Translations under genes and position numbers: made by a program
The notes under the pieces: generated by a model
Told to the model about the DNA's origin: nothing
The model's input: the letters and a program-made list of their open reading frames with translations, nothing else
Databases searched by the model: none
From: Entomoplasma ellychniae
GTDB taxonomy: Bacteria > Bacillota_I > Bacilli_A > Mycoplasmatales > Mycoplasmataceae
Assembly (NCBI RefSeq): GCF_002930155.1
Contig: NZ_PHND01000001.1
Span: 806,001-870,000 of the forward strand
DNA length: 64,000 nucleotides
Direction of reading: 5' to 3'
In this document: positions 36,676-63,660 of the stretch, one piece after another
Position numbering within the stretch: the first letter of the stretch is position 1
How the letters are laid out: the number at the start of each line of letters is the position of its first letter

Positions 36676-37551
36676 ATGAATAAATCAGGAATTATAATTG
36701 TAGACAAACCAAAAGGAATGTCTACAAATAAACTAATACAATTGCTTAAAAGAAAAATGAATATCAAAAAAATTGGCCATGCAGGAACCTTAGATCCTTT
36801 AGCTACTGGTTTAGTTATTTGTTTATTAAATAATGCAACTAAATTAAGTGATTATTTTTTAAATGAAAACAAGAATTATGAATTTGAAATAACTCTTTTT
36901 AAGTCAACTTCAACTTATGATGCTGAGGGAGAAATCATTAATCAAGAAGAAACTCGAGAAATAGAGTTACAAACCCTGAATGAAGTAATTTTAAAATTTG
37001 ATGGTTTAACTTATGACCAAGAACCCCCAATTTTTTCTGCTATAAAAATTAATGGAAAAAAACTTTATGAATATGCTAGAGAAGGCAAAGAAGTTGAAAT
37101 TAAAAAAAGAAGAATAACAATCAATCAATTAAAACTATTATCTTATGACAAAAAAAATAACTCAATTAAATTACAAGCTAATTGTTCAAAAGGCACTTAT
37201 ATAAGATCTTTAGCTTGTGATATAGCAAACTCATTGAAAACAATAGGTTATGTAAGTGAACTTAGAAGAATGCAGTCTGGTCAGTTTTTAATTGAAGATT
37301 CAAAAGAACTAGATAAAATTGATGAAAAAGATATTATAAATATATATGACTCATTAAAATTAGCAAAATTATCAATTGTTCACTTAAACGAATTAGTTGA
37401 TGTAAATAATGGTAAAAAAATAAAGTTAGATTCAGAAGATAAAATAGTTTTTATAAGCGATAGTCATCAAAATGTTTATGCTTGTTATGAAAAAATAGAA
37501 AACGATATTTATAAATGTAGACGTGGTGGGTTAAACGATGCAAGTAATTAA
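36676..37551 (+). CDS. truB: tRNA pseudouridine-55 synthase TruB
   Basis: 291-aa enzyme forming pseudouridine at tRNA position 55. Catalytic Asp in G-H-A-G-T-L-D-P-L-A-T-G (about residues 35-46), with G-I-I-I-V-D-K-P-K-G-M-S-T at the N-terminus and G-T-Y-I-R-S-L-A-C-D (about 173). Overlaps the FAD synthetase gene by 14 bp, the usual truB-ribF pairing. In many Firmicutes truB follows infB-rbfA; here infB is elsewhere (54694), so that operon is split. Confidence 0.95.
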   Translation: MNKSGIIIVDKPKGMSTNKLIQLLKRKMNIKKIGHAGTLDPLATGLVICLLNNATKLSDYFLNENKNYEFEITLFKSTSTYDAEGEIINQEETREIELQTLNEVILKFDGLTYDQEPPIFSAIKINGKKLYEYAREGKEVEIKKRRITINQLKLLSYDKKNNSIKLQANCSKGTYIRSLACDIANSLKTIGYVSELRRMQSGQFLIEDSKELDKIDEKDIINIYDSLKLAKLSIVHLNELVDVNNGKKIKLDSEDKIVFISDSHQNVYACYEKIENDIYKCRRGGLNDASN

Positions 37552-38086
37552 AACAAAAATAAAAAATTTAGAAAAAATAGCAAGTAATTCAATTATTACA
37601 GTTGGCATGTTTGATAGCTTACATATTTATCATCAAATGATTATCAATAAAGTAGTTGAAATAGGAACAAAAGAAAATTTGTTTAGAATCATATTTACTT
37701 TTAATAAAAAGCCAGGAAAAAAAGATTATGATTTTTTTCTAAACGAGAAAGATAAAATAAAATATATTCAAAATAAATTTGAAATCGACTTTTTATATAT
37801 TATCGAAGTTGATGAACAGTTAGCTAATAGTTCAAAAGAAGAATTTGTAAATATTCTAAAAAATAAGTTAGGTGTTATCAAAATAGTTGAGGGCAGTGAT
37901 TTTAAGTTTGCTTACAATCAAACTGGTGATGTTAATTATTTAATAAAAGAGTTTGGAATTGACAATGTAATTATTTTTCAAAGAAATAATTCAGTCTCAA
38001 CCAGTGAAGTTAAAAAGAAAATTAAACAAAATAATTCACAAGATATAATTGATATAATTGACATTAACTTAATAAAAAAAGGATAA
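37538..38086 (+). CDS. FMN adenylyltransferase, RibF N-terminal domain only
   Basis: 182 aa. The nucleotidyltransferase motif G-M-F-D-S-L-H-I-Y-H-Q (about 22-32) and S-T-S-E-V-K-K-K-I (about 162-170) match the adenylyltransferase half of bifunctional RibF (FAD synthetase). The roughly 120-aa riboflavin kinase domain is missing, and the frame closes at a normal TAA. The G-x-x-H position is I-Y-H rather than G-H, a small deviation. It would make FAD from FMN, so riboflavin phosphorylation must come from another gene or FMN be imported; that is inference. Overlap with truB indicates coupled translation. Confidence 0.82.
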   Translation: MQVIKTKIKNLEKIASNSIITVGMFDSLHIYHQMIINKVVEIGTKENLFRIIFTFNKKPGKKDYDFFLNEKDKIKYIQNKFEIDFLYIIEVDEQLANSSKEEFVNILKNKLGVIKIVEGSDFKFAYNQTGDVNYLIKEFGIDNVIIFQRNNSVSTSEVKKKIKQNNSQDIIDIIDINLIKKG

Positions 38087-56582: not shown

Positions 56583-58157
56583 ATGAAAATGGAAAAATTA
56601 AATAAAGTTAAACTAGAACAAATATCATTACTACAAGAAAGAGTTTCTGAAGGTTCTTTAGAGGAAAGTAATTTTAGAATATTAAAGAAAATAATTTTAA
56701 AAGCAGATAATAGTCAAGAAGTTTTTGCTTTAGCTTCTATGGGTATGATATTTAAAAATACAGGATTAGTTTATGATCAAAAAACAGAAAAAATAGAGAA
56801 TAATATAAAATACTTAAGCAAAAATAATATTCTTTCATTTGTTGAATCTGGAGAAATTCAGCATGAATTATTAATAGGAGATAATTACGATTCTTTATTG
56901 AATTTGCAAATTAAATATTTGTCAAAAATAAAAATAATATATATTGATCCACCATATGGTTCAAACGATTTAGGAGAGTTTGCTGATACTAATTATCAAA
57001 ATGCTATTTCTAGAGATAATTTATTGTCAATGTTACACCCAAGATTGATTTTAGCTAGGACTTTACTTTTAGATGATGGAGTAATATATTGTTCAATTGA
57101 TGATAAAAATTATGCATATATAAAATGTTTATTTGATGAGGTTTTTGGTGAAGAAAACTACATTTCAACTTTCATTTGAAATAATACAACTGGTGGGGGA
57201 ATAAGATCTAAACACGTTAATAAAACACACGAGTATATTTTATTTTATAGTAAAAATAAAAAAAATATTGAGGAATTATGAGCGCCTTTATCGCCTTCTG
57301 CGATATCAAGCTATAAACTTAAAGATGATAGAGGCAAACTTTATAGATTACAACAATTTGCTTGACAAAATGAATCTGAAGGACTAAATCAAAAATACCC
57401 AATCACTACGCCAGATGGAACAGAAATAATACCACAAGAAGGATATATTTACAGAACAACAAAAGAAACATTTAATAAGTGAAATGATAATGGAATTATA
57501 GTTTTTAAAAAAACTAAAGAATCAGTTTTTTCTAATTTAGATGGTTCTAATACAGAATGAACAATATCTGTTAAAGATTATTTGGGTGATGGAATGGGTG
57601 CGCCAACCTCTTCCCTTCCTAAAGAATATGTTAAAACAAATCAGAAATCTTCTTCAGAAATAAAAGATATTTTTGGGAAAAAAGTATTTAAATTTACAAA
57701 ACCTGTTGATTTAATTAAATATTTAATAAAGATAATACCAGAAGAAGAAAATACAATTGTTTTAGATTTTTTTGCAGGTTCAGGAACAACGGGGCAAGCG
57801 GTTTGTGAAATAAATAAAGAATTGGGGAAAAAGTACAAATTCATATTGTGTACAAATAATGAAAAGGACGTTAAATTGCATCCAAGAGGAATTGCTTACG
57901 ATGTGACTGTTGAAAGATTGAGGAGAGTGATGACAGGAATAGCAACATCTGGTAATTCCAATTTTAAATGAATAAAAAACAATGAAAAATTAGGGGGTAA
58001 TTTGGAAGTTTTTGAAATATTTTTTGCTGATAATAAAGATATTGATATTTTTAATAAAATAGATGAAACAAATTACGGTTATAAAAAAATGTCTTTAGAA
58101 GAAAAAATAAAATGAGTATGTGAAAATTTTGAGAAAACTGCAAAGGTGCTAAAATAA
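56583..58157 (+). CDS. Type III restriction-modification methyltransferase (Mod)
   Basis: 524-aa N6-adenine DNA methyltransferase, beta class. Catalytic I-D-P-P-Y-G-S (about residues 122-128) precedes the SAM motif L-D-F-F-A-G-S-G-T-T-G (about 396-406), the order expected for beta-class Mod proteins. Between them is the variable target-recognition region (about 195-370). N-terminal about 90 residues are helical. Several TGA Trp codons and no true stop. It is 5 bp downstream of infB with an AAGG site in the infB end, so it can be transcribed with the nusA-infB operon. Two bp separate it from res. No repeat tract for phase variation is visible. Confidence 0.9.
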
Positions 58158-58158
58158 A

Positions 58159-60126
58159 ATGAATCCAGAAATAGAAAAATTACAATTATTTGCTATAAAT
58201 AAGATTGAACAAACACTTGATGTAAAAAATATTGTGACATTTAAATCTCCAACAGGTTCTGGTAAAACTATAATGCTATGTAAATTAATTAATTCGATGA
58301 TAAGCAAAAATTCAGAATTAATTTTTTTAGTTTCTTCTTTATCAAAAAGTGAATTAGCACTTCAAAATCATGAAACTTTTTTTAATTTCTCAGTGGATAA
58401 CCCGCTTATTAAACCATTTTATATAAATTCTGAGACTTCAGAGGAAGCATCTTTGCAAATTCCTTGTGAATATAACGTTTATTCGTTGCCTACAAATTTG
58501 TATAATAAACACGGTAAATTATTCAAAGGAATTTTGGAATCATTTTTAAATAATATAAAACTAAAGGGAAAAAAAATAATTTTGATTAGAGATGAATGTC
58601 ATATTGAAACAACTAATTTGTCAAAACTAAATCATTTTTTTGATAAAATTCTTAATATTTCTGCTACACCTCAAACTACAAAATTTTTGATTGATGTTGA
58701 AATATCTGAATATGATGCTGAAAGATTTGGATTAATTAAACAAGTTAAAGAAATGGGAAATGGAGGTATTGAAGAATTTGAACTAGCTATAAAACACTTT
58801 ATAAGTGTGAAAGAAAAATACATAAAAACCTTCAATATTAACCCATGTATGATAGTTCAAATTTCAAATGAAGATAAAGGTTCATATGAATGAAAAACTA
58901 TAAAAAAAATATTAAATAATCCTCAATTTAATTTACATTGAATGTATTTAGCCACAAATATTAAAGACTATGATACTAATGATAAAATAAAAAACATTTC
59001 TAATTCAAATAAAAAAATAAAATGAAAAAAATATGCTAGAAATAATAACTCTCAAATAGATGTTATTATCTCTAAAATGGTTATTACTGAGGGTTGAGAC
59101 ATACCTCGAGCTTGTATGTTATTTCAATTAAGAGACACAAAATCAAAATCACTAACAGAACAAATTGTGGGTAGAGTTAGAAGAAATCCCATTTTAAAAA
59201 ATTGAAATGATTATGTTGATAATAAAAATGATTACTTTTTTGCTCTTCAATCTTGAGTTTGAGGTGATTTATCTAAGGTTAATAGAAATTTTAAAAGAGT
59301 GTATTTAAAAAAAGATCTTATAAAAGTTCAAACTACTTCTCTCCAAAAAATTATTCAAGTTCATTCAGATCATCAATTTGATATAAGAAATTTTGCTATC
59401 CAAAACCAACCTTTAATTTTGGAACAAAATATTTTTAAATTATATAAATTATGACAAAAAATGGATTATGACTTAAACAAACAAGCTTGAAATGTGATTA
59501 AAAATTTTAATGATTGAAAACTATTGTCTAACTCAACTGATAGAATCATCCAAGAAAACAGAAGAATATTAAAGGACTATGAAAAAACTATGTTTGTCAA
59601 TAAAATATCGGGTCTTCAACAAGAAAGTTATTTTGAAATAACAAAACAAAAATTAACTATAAAAGACAGCTTATGAAGAGTAATCGATAATTATTTTGAT
59701 GATAATGATGATTCTGAAATTTGCTTTGATTCTGAAGCTGAAAAAAAATTCGCTATTATACTATCATTGACTAAAAACACAGTTTGAGCAAGAAATTTTT
59801 ACCCAAATTCAACTATAAATTTTGAATACATTAATATTACAAAAACAAAATCTTATCCTGATTTTATTTTAAAAGATAAAAATAATTTAAATCACATTTT
59901 TGAGGTTAAAAGCTTCAATTTGAGCAATGAACAAAAAATTGATATTTTAGCTTATAAAGAAAAAATATCAGATCTTGCAGAATGTTACTTATTTGCTTCC
60001 AAAAAAACTAATCAAACTTTCTACATTCCTATTTTAATTGGAAATTTATGAGAAATAAGAAAATTTTCTAAAGGTGTAGAGCATATTATTGATGATAAAA
60101 AATTAATAGAGGAACTATCAGTTTAA
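58159..60126 (+). CDS. Type III restriction endonuclease subunit (Res)
   Basis: 655 aa. SF2 helicase core: Walker A S-P-T-G-S-G-K-T (about 33-40), motif II D-E-C-H (about 149-152), motif III S-A-T-P, motif V E-G-W-D-I-P-R-A and VI Q-I-V-G-R-V-R-R-N-P (about 337-346). The C-terminal PD-(D/E)xK nuclease shows Y-P-D-F-I-L and F-E-V-K-S (about 572-596). It cuts DNA in complex with Mod after translocation. All motifs are intact and no stop interrupts, although it is shorter than the about 900-aa Res of enterobacteria. Uses TGA Trp freely, so it is adapted to this genetic code and not a recent arrival from a standard-code host. Confidence 0.9.
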
Positions 60127-60364: not shown

Positions 60365-62493
60365 ATGCATAACTTTTTTGTTATTGATCTTTCTCAAGCT
60401 ATATGATATGAAAAAAATAATATTTTAAAAATTGGAAATAAAAATATTCAAAATTTATCAAATAAAGAAAATTATTCAGTACTTATTTTTATTTTAAAAA
60501 TTTTAAAATCTGGATATTCAATTTCTAAAATAGAATTGGAAAAAAATGGCAATTAGGAAGAGAAGCCTCAGGGAGATTGGATATAATTATATATGATTTA
60601 AGCAATAAACCGTTTTGAATGATAGAAGATAAAGATGAAAGCGAGATTTCAAAATATGCTTCTTCATCAGCAAATATTAATAAAATAAAGCAATTAATTT
60701 CTTATTACAATCAAGAGAGAGAAACGAAATTTTTATCTTATTTTTCTTTTAATTTTTCTAGTAATAAACCTTTATTTGCAACGATAAAAGTAACAGATAG
60801 AATGAAAAATTGTCCTAATTTAGAAGATATTTATGATATTTGAGATAAAAATTTTGACAGCACTGATTTGTTTAAAATTAATCCTTATAATTTATCAAAA
60901 AAATGTTTAAAAAATAATGATTTAATATTAATAGATAATGATGACATAGTTCATAATATATTTAATCAATTTTTAACTATCCTTAGAATAAATACTGTTT
61001 CAGATAAACCTAATTCTTTTGATAAATTAATAAATCTTTTTATTGCAAAAATTTATGATGAATTACAAGATGATATTAATTTTGAAGTAAATTCTAATAA
61101 TGTATCTTATAATGTTGAAGGAAAAAGGTTTCAGTATTTGTCAAAAATTGATACCCCTGAATCATTTTTAATTAGATTGTATGATTTATATAAAAACGGA
61201 ATGAAATATTGTTTAAATAAAGAAATAATAGATTATACAGATGATGATTTTTGAGAATTAGCCAATAAAAATAATAATCAAAAATTATTAAAAATGTTTC
61301 AAAATTTAAGATTAAAAAAAGATAATACTTTTGCATTTATAGAGGTATTTGATGATTATACTTTTAAAAATAACTTTGAAATAGTTAAAGAATTAGTGGA
61401 ATTATTACAAAAATATAAATTTAAATATAATAATAAAAAACAATTTTTAGGTGATTTTTTTGAAGAATTATTAAATGAATCGTGAAAGCAAGAAGCGGGA
61501 CAATTTTTTACTCCATTACCTATAGTGGAAATGATGACAAACGCATTACCAATCAAAGAAAATATACAAAATAAATTATTGTCAACAAAAATACAAAATG
61601 AGCTTTTACCTAAAACTTTGGATTATGCTTACGGATCGGGACATTTTTTAATTTCCTCAATGGACATAATTCAAAAATATATTGACAATATTGATTTAAA
61701 TAGTATAAAAATAGATAATTATAAAAATAAAATCCAAAGCTATAAAAAGGATAAATATTCTTGAGCGAAGGAATACGTTTACGGTATTGAAAAAGATTAT
61801 AGATTAAGTAAAACTACAAAAATAGCATCTTTCCTAAATGGAGATGGAGAGGCAAACGTTTTAAACGCTGATGCTCTACTTAAATTTGATTCTGAAATAT
61901 TTAACGGAACTATTTTTTATGGTAAAAAACCTAATAATGAAATATTTGATTATATTATTTCAAATCCTCCATATTCAGTAAAAGGATTTATGAAAAATTT
62001 TATTATATCTGGAATAAAACCAGGAGATGGAACTTTTGAATTTTTAAATGAAATAAACTACAAAAATACAAATATTGAATCTTTCTTTTTGGAGAGAACA
62101 TATCAATTATTAAAAAATAATGGTTTTGCGTCAATTGTGTTACCCCAATCATTTTTAACAAATGATAAATATTCAGAAATTAGATCATGAATGTTAGAAA
62201 AATTTTATATTAAATCTATTTTTTTATCTGGTCCAAATACTTTTTCGGGAACTACAACTTCTCCTGTAATTTTATTTTTACAAAAAAGTGCTAAAAACAT
62301 CATAGATTTAAATTATCATGTTTTTGTAATACATTCACCAATTATGATTGACCATAATTCATTAAAATTAGAAAAAGATTTTTTAGGATTTTACTTCTCT
62401 TCAAATAAAAATAAAAAAGGTATAACAATAACTAATTTTGATAATTTAAAAAATAAGTTATTCAGAAAATATAAAAAATATGTTTTTGGGTAA
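60365..62493 (+). pseudogene. Type I/IIG-like nuclease-methyltransferase, frameshifted at A7
   Basis: ATG 60365 reads 63 codons, then hits TAG at 60554. The next frame (60547-62493, no true stop) continues exactly where it should if the A7 run at 60540-60546 had eight A: K-K-W-Q-L-G-R-E-A-S-G-R-L-D-I-I-I-Y-D then M-I-E-D-K, an HsdR-N-like PD-ExK nuclease site. Downstream is a gamma-class N6-adenine methylase: E-A-G-Q-F-F-T-P-L-P, motif I D-Y-A-Y-G-S-G-H-F-L (the usual C is Y) and motif IV N-P-P-Y-S (about 61966-61980). It ends at 62491, overlapping the specificity ORF by 14 bp in another frame. If only the second part is translated (ATG 60619), the nuclease motif's Asp is lost and a methylase-only product results. 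Confidence 0.78.
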
Positions 62494-63040
62494 AAAAGTA
62501 AAAATTGATGAATATTCTAAGGTTTCTTTATTGAATCATTTAATAATTGAAGACCATAAAAATAAAAAAGCAATTTTTACAAGAAGAATCTTACCAGATA
62601 ATTTAAATGATTATTTTACTTTATCGGATGTATGTGAGGAACGTAAAATTATTGAAAATAATGAAATTATTGATACTAATCAATTAAATTACATAGAAAT
62701 AAGTAATATAGATAATAATAAATTGGTCGGTAATTTTAAAAAAAATATGAAGTCAAGCAACTTTTGCAAGAAAGGCGATTTACTAATTAGTTCTGTAACA
62801 CCAAAATCTAAAAAGGTTTGAATTTCAGATGGAAATTATAAAGTTTCATCAGCAATTATTGTTTTAAAATTTAATGATGAAAGTGTAAGAGATTATATTT
62901 TTGACTATTTAAAAAACAATGTTAATAATATTTTTACAAATATAAATTCTTTATCTGAAGGATTTAAAGTTACATATAGCAAAATTTCTTCATGAAATTT
63001 ATTAAATAATATATATTTTAAAAAAGTAAAATCAAATTAA
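62480..63040 (+). CDS. Single-TRD specificity (HsdS-like) domain ORF
   Basis: 186 aa. Looks like one half of a Type I specificity subunit: a target-recognition-type N-terminal part, then S-D-V-C-E-E-R-K (S-N-I-x-E-x-R-x in many S domains), N-Y-I-E-I-S-N-I-D, K-G-D-L-L-I-S-S-V-T-P and I-I-V-L-K. These are the core of HsdS repeat units. A full HsdS has two; single units are found fused to Type IIG enzymes. Its first codons overlap the methylase end out of frame. Deleting one T at 62483-62487 would fuse Y-V-L-G-K-K-V-K, so it may really be the C-terminal domain of the upstream enzyme. No ribosome site before ATG 62480. Confidence 0.65.
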
Positions 63041-63100
63041 CTCTTCTAAAAAACCAAACCTCTTTAAAAATAAACACGGAAAAATAAATTCTACATTTTA

Positions 63101-63660
63101 TTAATTAATAGCGCTAGCAAAAGCTGGCTCTTTTCAATTCAATACTTTTTGTTTTTTCTTTTAAAATTATATCACTCTATATATTCTAATATATACTTAT
63201 AAATTTCATGAAATTTCATTTTTGCAGTAGCTAGATGATTTAAATATTCTCCTTTTAAACAACCAAAGAAATATTCAGCTTCTCGGTTATCTAATGAATT
63301 TCCAACCCTTCCCATTGAAGTTTTGGCATTAATAGCTTTTAATCTATCAAGAACTTTATAACTAGAATATTGGAACCATGATCAGAATGAAAGATAAAGT
63401 TTTTTGTTTTTAAACCATTAATTGTATCTAAAACGAGTTGGGTGTTATTTGATTGAGACAATTTTCATGATTCAATCATTTTAGTTTTATGACTAATAGC
63501 AAACGATAAATAAACAAAATTTTCAGGTGCATCAGCAGGGATATAACTAACATCAGTTGCTATTATGTTGTCTTCTTTGGGATTAAAGTTTCTTCTTACA
63601 AGTTCCTCAAATTTAACATTAGTATTTTTATTTTCAATTTTTTTCCTTTTACCTTTTTTT
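63101..63660 (-). pseudogene. IS3-family transposase remnant (OrfB catalytic part)
   Basis: Minus-strand remains of a DDE transposase of the IS3 (IS150-like) group. Visible: A-T-D-V-S-Y-I (first Asp, forward 63552-63554), H-S-D-H-G-S (second Asp, 63381-63383), D-N-R-E-A-E-Y-F-F-G-C-L-K (Glu, about 63284-63286), and a C-terminal V-L-N-W-K-E-P-A-F-A-S-A-I-N ending at 63101. Two single-base deletions or insertions (near 63370 and near 63150) and a missing N-terminal half with no OrfA show it is dead. Terminal inverted repeats were not found. It abuts a truncated plus-strand gene at about 63660. Confidence 0.85.

Follow-up and report, generated by a model that had tools for sequence, protein, structure and literature searches.

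Among described systems, the single-chain Type IIB restriction-modification (RM) enzymes AloI and TstI, together with RM.BsaXI, come closest to the gene analysed here, sharing with it the order of nuclease, N6-adenine methylase and target-recognition domain (TRD), a likeness drawn for AloI and TstI from their descriptions. TstI is given as 1,251 amino acids long (PMC4027205), and RM.BsaXI is described as the RM part of a Type IIB enzyme whose S subunit is separate (PMC9159934). In contrast to these three, the type found here encodes a single TRD (its intact relatives are about 900 amino acids long), and two frame shifts interrupt it. Cj0031 of Campylobacter jejuni, a Type IIG enzyme, is a single-chain RM protein like those of the present family, and a G9 at base 2573 of 3732 splits its gene into two frames and is reported as a proven switch, many homologues being without the G tract (PMC4889913). 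That tract lies about two thirds of the way along, resembling the position of an A9 joint described below; it is poly-G, whereas the A9 in longer relatives is kept across phyla and the A7 break considered here falls within the nuclease. Mollicute RM genes switched by a change of repeat length are known from Mycoplasma agalactiae, with phase-variable Type II and Type III enzymes, and the descriptions there concern GA repeats or poly(G), whereas we deal with an A7, a single-chain enzyme and a second lesion (PMC9465063). In dnaX of Thermus thermophilus, an A9 with a close stop in the slipped frames gives a long and a short product by transcriptional slippage (PMC1088944); truncating slippage sites are described in the same paper as hard to spot by comparison, its search having retained only the lengthening ones.

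The gene lies in a window of 64 kb, by which we mean the whole stretch of DNA that was analysed, in a genome that uses genetic code 4, where TGA encodes tryptophan (six such codons fall in the methylase ORF). Its features and those of its immediate neighbours are as follows.

56583-58157, + strand: Type III-like mod ORF (Pfam N6_N4_Mtase, 3e-35), upstream of the broken gene
58159-60126, + strand: Type III-like res ORF (Pfam ResIII, 6.9e-12), upstream of the broken gene
60365-60556, + strand: ORF of 63 amino acids (code 4), the N-terminal, HsdR_N-like part of the nuclease, from ATG 60365 to a stop just past the A7 run
60540-60546, + strand: A7 run and first frame break, the downstream frame being -1 relative to the upstream frame
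60541-62493, + strand: second frame, with the remaining nuclease domain and the N6-adenine methylase, open from the A7 to the stop at 62493
60577-60579, + strand: in-frame TTG, a candidate start that would retain the nuclease Asp, with AGGGAG one base upstream
60580-60582 and 60625-60633, + strand, second frame: nuclease Asp codon and E-x-K, assigned by eye
60619-60621, + strand: ATG put forward by the initial annotation as the methylase start, a candidate start
61963-61974, + strand: NPPY methylase motif, read in translation
62448-62459, + strand: second frame-break zone in the linker between methylase and TRD, of sign +1 and thus opposite to the first, drawn by eye; it contains an A6 run at 62448-62453
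62480-63040, + strand: ORF with a single TRD, ending where homologues end
63091-63315, - strand: transposase remnant of 74 amino acids with an rve_2 integrase core, just downstream of the broken gene

A family profile of 901 positions, built from four relatives (L034, L005, L038 and L039), matches the window three times in co-linear order: positions 35-90 at 60377-60550 in frame 2 (E 7e-10), positions 86-711 at 60535-62454 in frame 1 (E 1e-231), and positions 711-900 at 62456-63025 in frame 2 (E 3e-34). The succession of frames, 2/1/2, amounts to two frame breaks of opposite sign. Because the match leaves one frame and resumes in the other, the first break lies at the A7 or a few bases away; the second falls at model position 711, where the match switches frame in passing from 62454 to 62456. 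The initial annotation, which had the gene going out of frame at the run, holds for the first break, the only one of the two that it recorded. Apart from the two breaks the gene reads cleanly over 2.6 kb, and the stretch 60402-60488 has two short DNA similarities elsewhere in the same genome (85% over 51 bases and 74% over 65 bases).

Judged by these matches, the pieces are one protein consisting of an HsdR_N-type nuclease, an N6-adenine methylase and a TRD, and the family is, by its domains, a single-chain RM enzyme of the Type IIB/IIG kind, with a gamma-type methylase, one TRD and about 900 amino acids in the relatives. The methylase domain is identified by the matches of the middle ORF to Pfam N6_Mtase (2e-21) and Eco57I (7.6e-12) together with NPPY. 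The nuclease domain is spanned by the family profile in two frames, with D and E-x-K present by eye; the 63-residue N-terminal piece has no Pfam match, and HSDR_N_2/HSDR_N is detected in relatives and falls below the cut-off in the two mollicute copies scanned. Nuclease and methylase share a single frame in 85 of 86 related loci, so the architecture proposed at the outset, with both domains joined in one chain, is right, and homologues that begin without a nuclease at the equivalent of 60619, which had been named as evidence against the toggle, were not the pattern encountered; the one exception is a Lactobacillus gasseri copy, split elsewhere than at the equivalent of the A7. These 86 loci are the best 80 of 251 relatives from an alignment scan together with six earlier loci. 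In uninterrupted relatives the TRD stands on the same chain, whereas in the window its homology sits in the other frame from the methylase, which makes this a broken copy of a single-chain family and not a working member.

Matches at E 0.001 or better were found in 39 of 198 related genomes (the window's own included), L005 alone being close, and the L005 protein matched 5 of 392 genomes across the phylum at 1e-20, again counting the window's own. The window gene is the sole match in its own genome at E 0.001 or better, leaving no second copy there at that threshold for recombination; no relative was retrieved by a contig search with the window protein alone, none matched among phage sequences, and none among E. 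coli genomes with one query. Among the closest are L005, a mollicute copy with 49% identity to the window gene, and the Mycoplasmopsis cynos copy, a single ORF of 908 amino acids with 49.8% identity, whose best match among solved structures is RM.BsaXI (3e-35). Eight other single-TRD loci (L038, L039, L043-L046, L048 and L049) are likewise uninterrupted, with 906-947 amino acids from stop to stop, the ORF of L049 extending to the edge of its locus. Behind the methylase, relatives carry one or two TRDs: two Methylase_S stretches are found in L035 and L070, the only long relatives scanned in full, the others being termed long by their ORF length, mostly 1,209-1,371 codons from stop to stop, a size comparable to that of TstI. 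In L005 (3636-4813) the end of the TRD is missing and a transposase-like ORF, recognised by eye, follows directly.

What, then, became of the window gene? We think it probable that it is a mollicute single-chain RM gene cut into three ORFs by two opposite frame breaks, that its restriction function was lost recently, and that its A7 is no dedicated switch. Both breaks, the co-linearity of the pieces with uninterrupted relatives, and the failure of any A7-only change to restore the full chain are plain from the frames: with the second break lying between methylase and TRD, the enzyme is left incomplete by seven A and by eight alike. The steps would have been one break at the A7, within the nuclease, and another in the linker that leads from methylase to TRD, the run being simply where one of the breaks occurred and not a site built for switching. 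Restriction would have been lost with them, and the loss would be recent, as no further stops have gathered and the catalytic motifs, NPPY and the D/E-x-K residues, are retained. The transposase remnant beside the gene and the transposase-like ORF behind the truncated L005 copy fit this reading. Of 222 columns that nine single-TRD relatives keep invariant, the window gene differs at 34; L005 and L042, the two other mollicute copies outside the nine, differ at 10 of 205 and 16 of 197. With identity to L005 at just 49%, these departures may reflect branch length instead of decay. Among 133 columns that 95% of the 86 loci conserve, its departures number 9, as many as the usual range of 0-9 allows; L035 has 19. 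Further points against a broken gene are that a long-dead gene would not stay clean over 2.6 kb, and that the vaa gene of Mycoplasma hominis switches between A7 and A8.

The length of the run can be set against the rest of the window, whose + strand holds 83 A7, 24 A8 and one A9 over 64 kb, with 124 A/T runs of at least 7 inside the 42 other ORFs; at least seven consecutive A occur in 2.4% of 20-base stretches. The A7 at 60540-60546 is thus no more than chance would provide, and its length is ordinary for the window. Over the roughly 20 bases examined around the equivalent codons, A/T runs reach 6 bases at most in 48 of the 86 loci and 7 bases in three, with none above 7, and no run from the list of A8-or-longer runs in the 86 loci falls at that place. 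The run lies inside the nuclease domain, not at a domain joint. As a dedicated on/off switch the A7 is not supported, and the toggle between restriction and methylation-only states that the initial annotation had read into it finds no support in these comparisons or in the second break. Its companion claim, that only a methylase starting at ATG 60619 and lacking the nuclease Asp could be made from seven A, is weakened by the TTG at 60577. An invariant tract together with decay of the 3' part had been named as speaking against a switch; the second frame break bears on the decay. The case stands as a caution, as a single short homopolymer, here one of two lesions, is easily misread as a switch.

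The main rival to a broken gene, which we hold to be unlikely, is a split but working methylase, the nuclease having been lost at the A7 and methylase and TRD being made as two chains that assemble in the manner of HsdM/HsdS or the BcgI A and B subunits. The methylase would run from 60577 or 60619 to 62493 and the TRD from ATG 62480; both frames are clean, NPPY is retained, and the 14-base overlap of the ATG 62480 ORF with the methylase end would suit translational coupling. Two-chain relatives are known, RM.BsaXI with its separate S being one (PMC9159934) and BcgI, described as two chains (PMC4027205), another. However, the homology in the TRD frame begins at 62456, upstream of ATG 62480, and this places the lesion in a one-chain ancestor and not at an original gene border; a ribosome-binding site before ATG 62480 is, by eye, not clear either. 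True A7/A8 phase variation, perhaps with the second site varying too, is more doubtful still. The break does sit exactly at the A7, two L. gasseri copies of a relative differ by G8 and G9 at a tract of their own, and M. agalactiae Type II/III enzymes vary via poly(G) and GA repeats, the authors suspecting poly(A) or poly(GA) for hsdR (PMC9465063). But the second break persists whatever the A7 does, so that no one tract change gives a complete product, and the ordinary length of the run, its place within the nuclease domain and the homologues without a run above 7 all speak against it.

Both breaks lie at or beside A runs, the A7 and the A6, which is what errors of assembly at short A runs would produce, an explanation we rate lower again. 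As all 42 other ORFs of the window are open by construction, the only real test of noise is how fully they span known families, and 30 of them were scanned against curated families with a match threshold of 1e-10. Matches were obtained for 25, and 22 of these span the model nearly end to end; the remaining three are a RibF-like ORF (37538-38086) covering the first half of its model, and CdsA-like and RseP-like ORFs with partial matches. The frame behind the RibF-like ORF resembles, by eye, ribosomal protein S15 and not a RibF remnant. With 22 of 25 near-complete, it is unlikely that random errors account for both breaks; two in a single gene with none seen in the rest would be odd, and the genome is listed as 99.75% complete and 0.06% contaminated. 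Slippage on the A7 allele, by RNA polymerase or as a -1 ribosomal shift at the in-phase A-AAA-AAT heptamer, so that some nuclease-methylase chain is still made, is very improbable, as the TRD would still be removed by the second break, the run falls short of the nine bases at which many genomes are described as showing selection against slippage (PMC1088944), and a stimulatory RNA structure is absent from the 100 bases behind it (z 0.78), on which ground a programmed -1 shift was dropped.

If the A7 of the window gene is best taken as the scar of a broken gene, the idea of a switch does fit the family at other joints, namely a poly-G where nuclease meets methylase in L. gasseri and a conserved A9 between methylase and TRD in the longer relatives, the latter being what most merits further study. 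In L. gasseri, the two plasmid copies of the gene, from strains VSI26 and HL20, share 99.2% identity along its length, and the tract between nuclease and methylase is G8 in VSI26 and G9 in HL20 (L035 4040 and L036 3295; a 171-base stretch was compared). The difference decides between one ORF of 1,248 amino acids and a 292-residue nuclease followed by a 973-residue methylase-TRD protein, so that the poly-G shows, in a relative, the very logic that the initial annotation had proposed for the A7. Poly-G runs also recur among relatives in the phylum of the Sulfurimonas locus (L149-L173, about 40% identity), where 17 of 25 have runs of G8-G15: 3 before the nuclease, 2 at the methylase/TRD joint and 12 further along.

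At the joint of methylase and TRD, the longer relatives share a linker motif, FEKNISLSxKKKVKIESKW, that is encoded with an A run (for example 6434-6442 in L070, of Flavobacterium frigidimaris). A run of A8-A10 is present there in 55 of 69 measurable loci, which fall within L051-L121 and belong to several phyla: 44 have A9, 8 have A10 and 3 have A8, with A3-A6 in 14 and A7 in none. The other loci of the 86 comprise 16 without a joint match at E below 1e-10 and one, of the remaining 70, that was not measurable. Those 16 consist of every one of the 12 loci in the single-TRD or mollicute branch, the L. gasseri pair and two loci of Brachyspira; Brachyspira L083, L111 (A10 near model position 742) and L138 do carry an A10 in a comparable position, their divergence having at first kept the joint profile from matching. 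No joint match was seen in the single-TRD branch, and the window gene is without the A9 joint.

Several comparisons suggest that the run is kept for its own sake. In 55 ORFs (189 kb), retrieved by a motif that demands Lys-Lys, 50 of the 52 A/T runs of at least 9 are located at the joint, and a run of at least 8 stands at the joint in 53 of 55 ORFs against 0 of 16 other Lys-Lys-Lys stretches (Fisher 4.8e-14, relatedness ignored). Elsewhere in these genes lysine is AAA in 80% of cases (5281/6595), and across 50 conserved Lys columns two of the joint lysines rank first and second in AAA use. The third ranks 13th because it is AAG in five in-frame loci (L051, L057, L058, L064 and L072), in which the run is shifted one base earlier and is still nine. 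The run itself, and not Lys-Lys-Lys alone, thus seems to be what is kept. Beyond it, a stop follows in the -1 frame within one codon in 38 of 49 in-frame loci, where a codon-shuffled null, which takes no account of relatedness, has a mean of 17.6 and a maximum of 28 in 1000 shuffles; the +1 frame has no excess of stops (42 of 49 within 4 codons; null mean 34.9, maximum 44). Thinning the loci to one per cluster leaves the run in 31 of 32 at 80% identity, with the near stop in 23 of 31 against 10.9 expected, and in 10 of 11 at 70%, where the near stop in the -1 frame is down to 6 of 10, with 3.3 expected; at 60% four loci are left, three of them with the run. Eight close loci retrieved separately, with at most 71% DNA identity to any of the first 80, have the run in six, L143 being without it and L144 having a joint that is not confidently located.

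Four alleles (L088, L098, L112 and L121) go out of frame exactly at the run, their TRD frame remaining open for 338-392 codons beyond it, and three more tract loci (L067, L096 and L116) are cut further on, for other reasons. Four of 55 is fewer than expected of a freely switching gene. Taken together, the recurrence of this run at one joint in different lineages, and the alleles that leave frame there yet keep the frame behind it intact, look like the mark of a genuine slip site built into these genes, although the shared joint DNA could also stem from exchange of TRDs by recombination. We therefore offer, tentatively and as something short of an even chance, the proposal that longer single-chain RM enzymes of Bacteroidota, Campylobacterota, Pseudomonadota, Bacillota and others have retained under selection an A9 slip site between RM and S, where RNA slippage or A8/A10 DNA alleles would yield both the full RM-S chain and a shorter RM chain lacking S. 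The layout, an A9 with a near stop, is that of dnaX. Slippage at the A9 might then switch the enzyme off, or perhaps supply BcgI-like complexes of two RM to one S in the Thermus dnaX manner. An A9 at one joint across phyla, near-absent elsewhere in the same genes, suggests selected frame slippage at a fixed domain border, and such slippage, if selected, would belong to the way in which single-chain restriction enzymes are produced or silenced. Among the best-ranked matches in open-licence papers, no report of an A9 site in this enzyme family was recognisable by title or abstract, and the terms frameshift, homopolymer and 'phase var' are all absent from the text of the TstI paper (PMC4027205). 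In another genome of the same order as the window's, a run of 47 A stands about 160 bases behind the uninterrupted copy L038 (4375).

The gene sits in a worn defence island. Immediately upstream of it are the Type III-like mod and res ORFs, and between the broken gene and hsdR lie transposase fragments (rve, HTH_38) at 63091-63315 and, beyond, at L122 1690-3284. Downstream of these remnants follow an hsdR ORF of 1,019 amino acids and an hsdM ORF of 505. Further on in the same genome, outside the window, two hsdS-like ORFs flank a recombinase-like ORF, by eye (L146 4446-7145); with inverted repeats of 87 bases (78%) and 42 bases (83%) in the locus, this is possibly an invertible Type I specificity locus.
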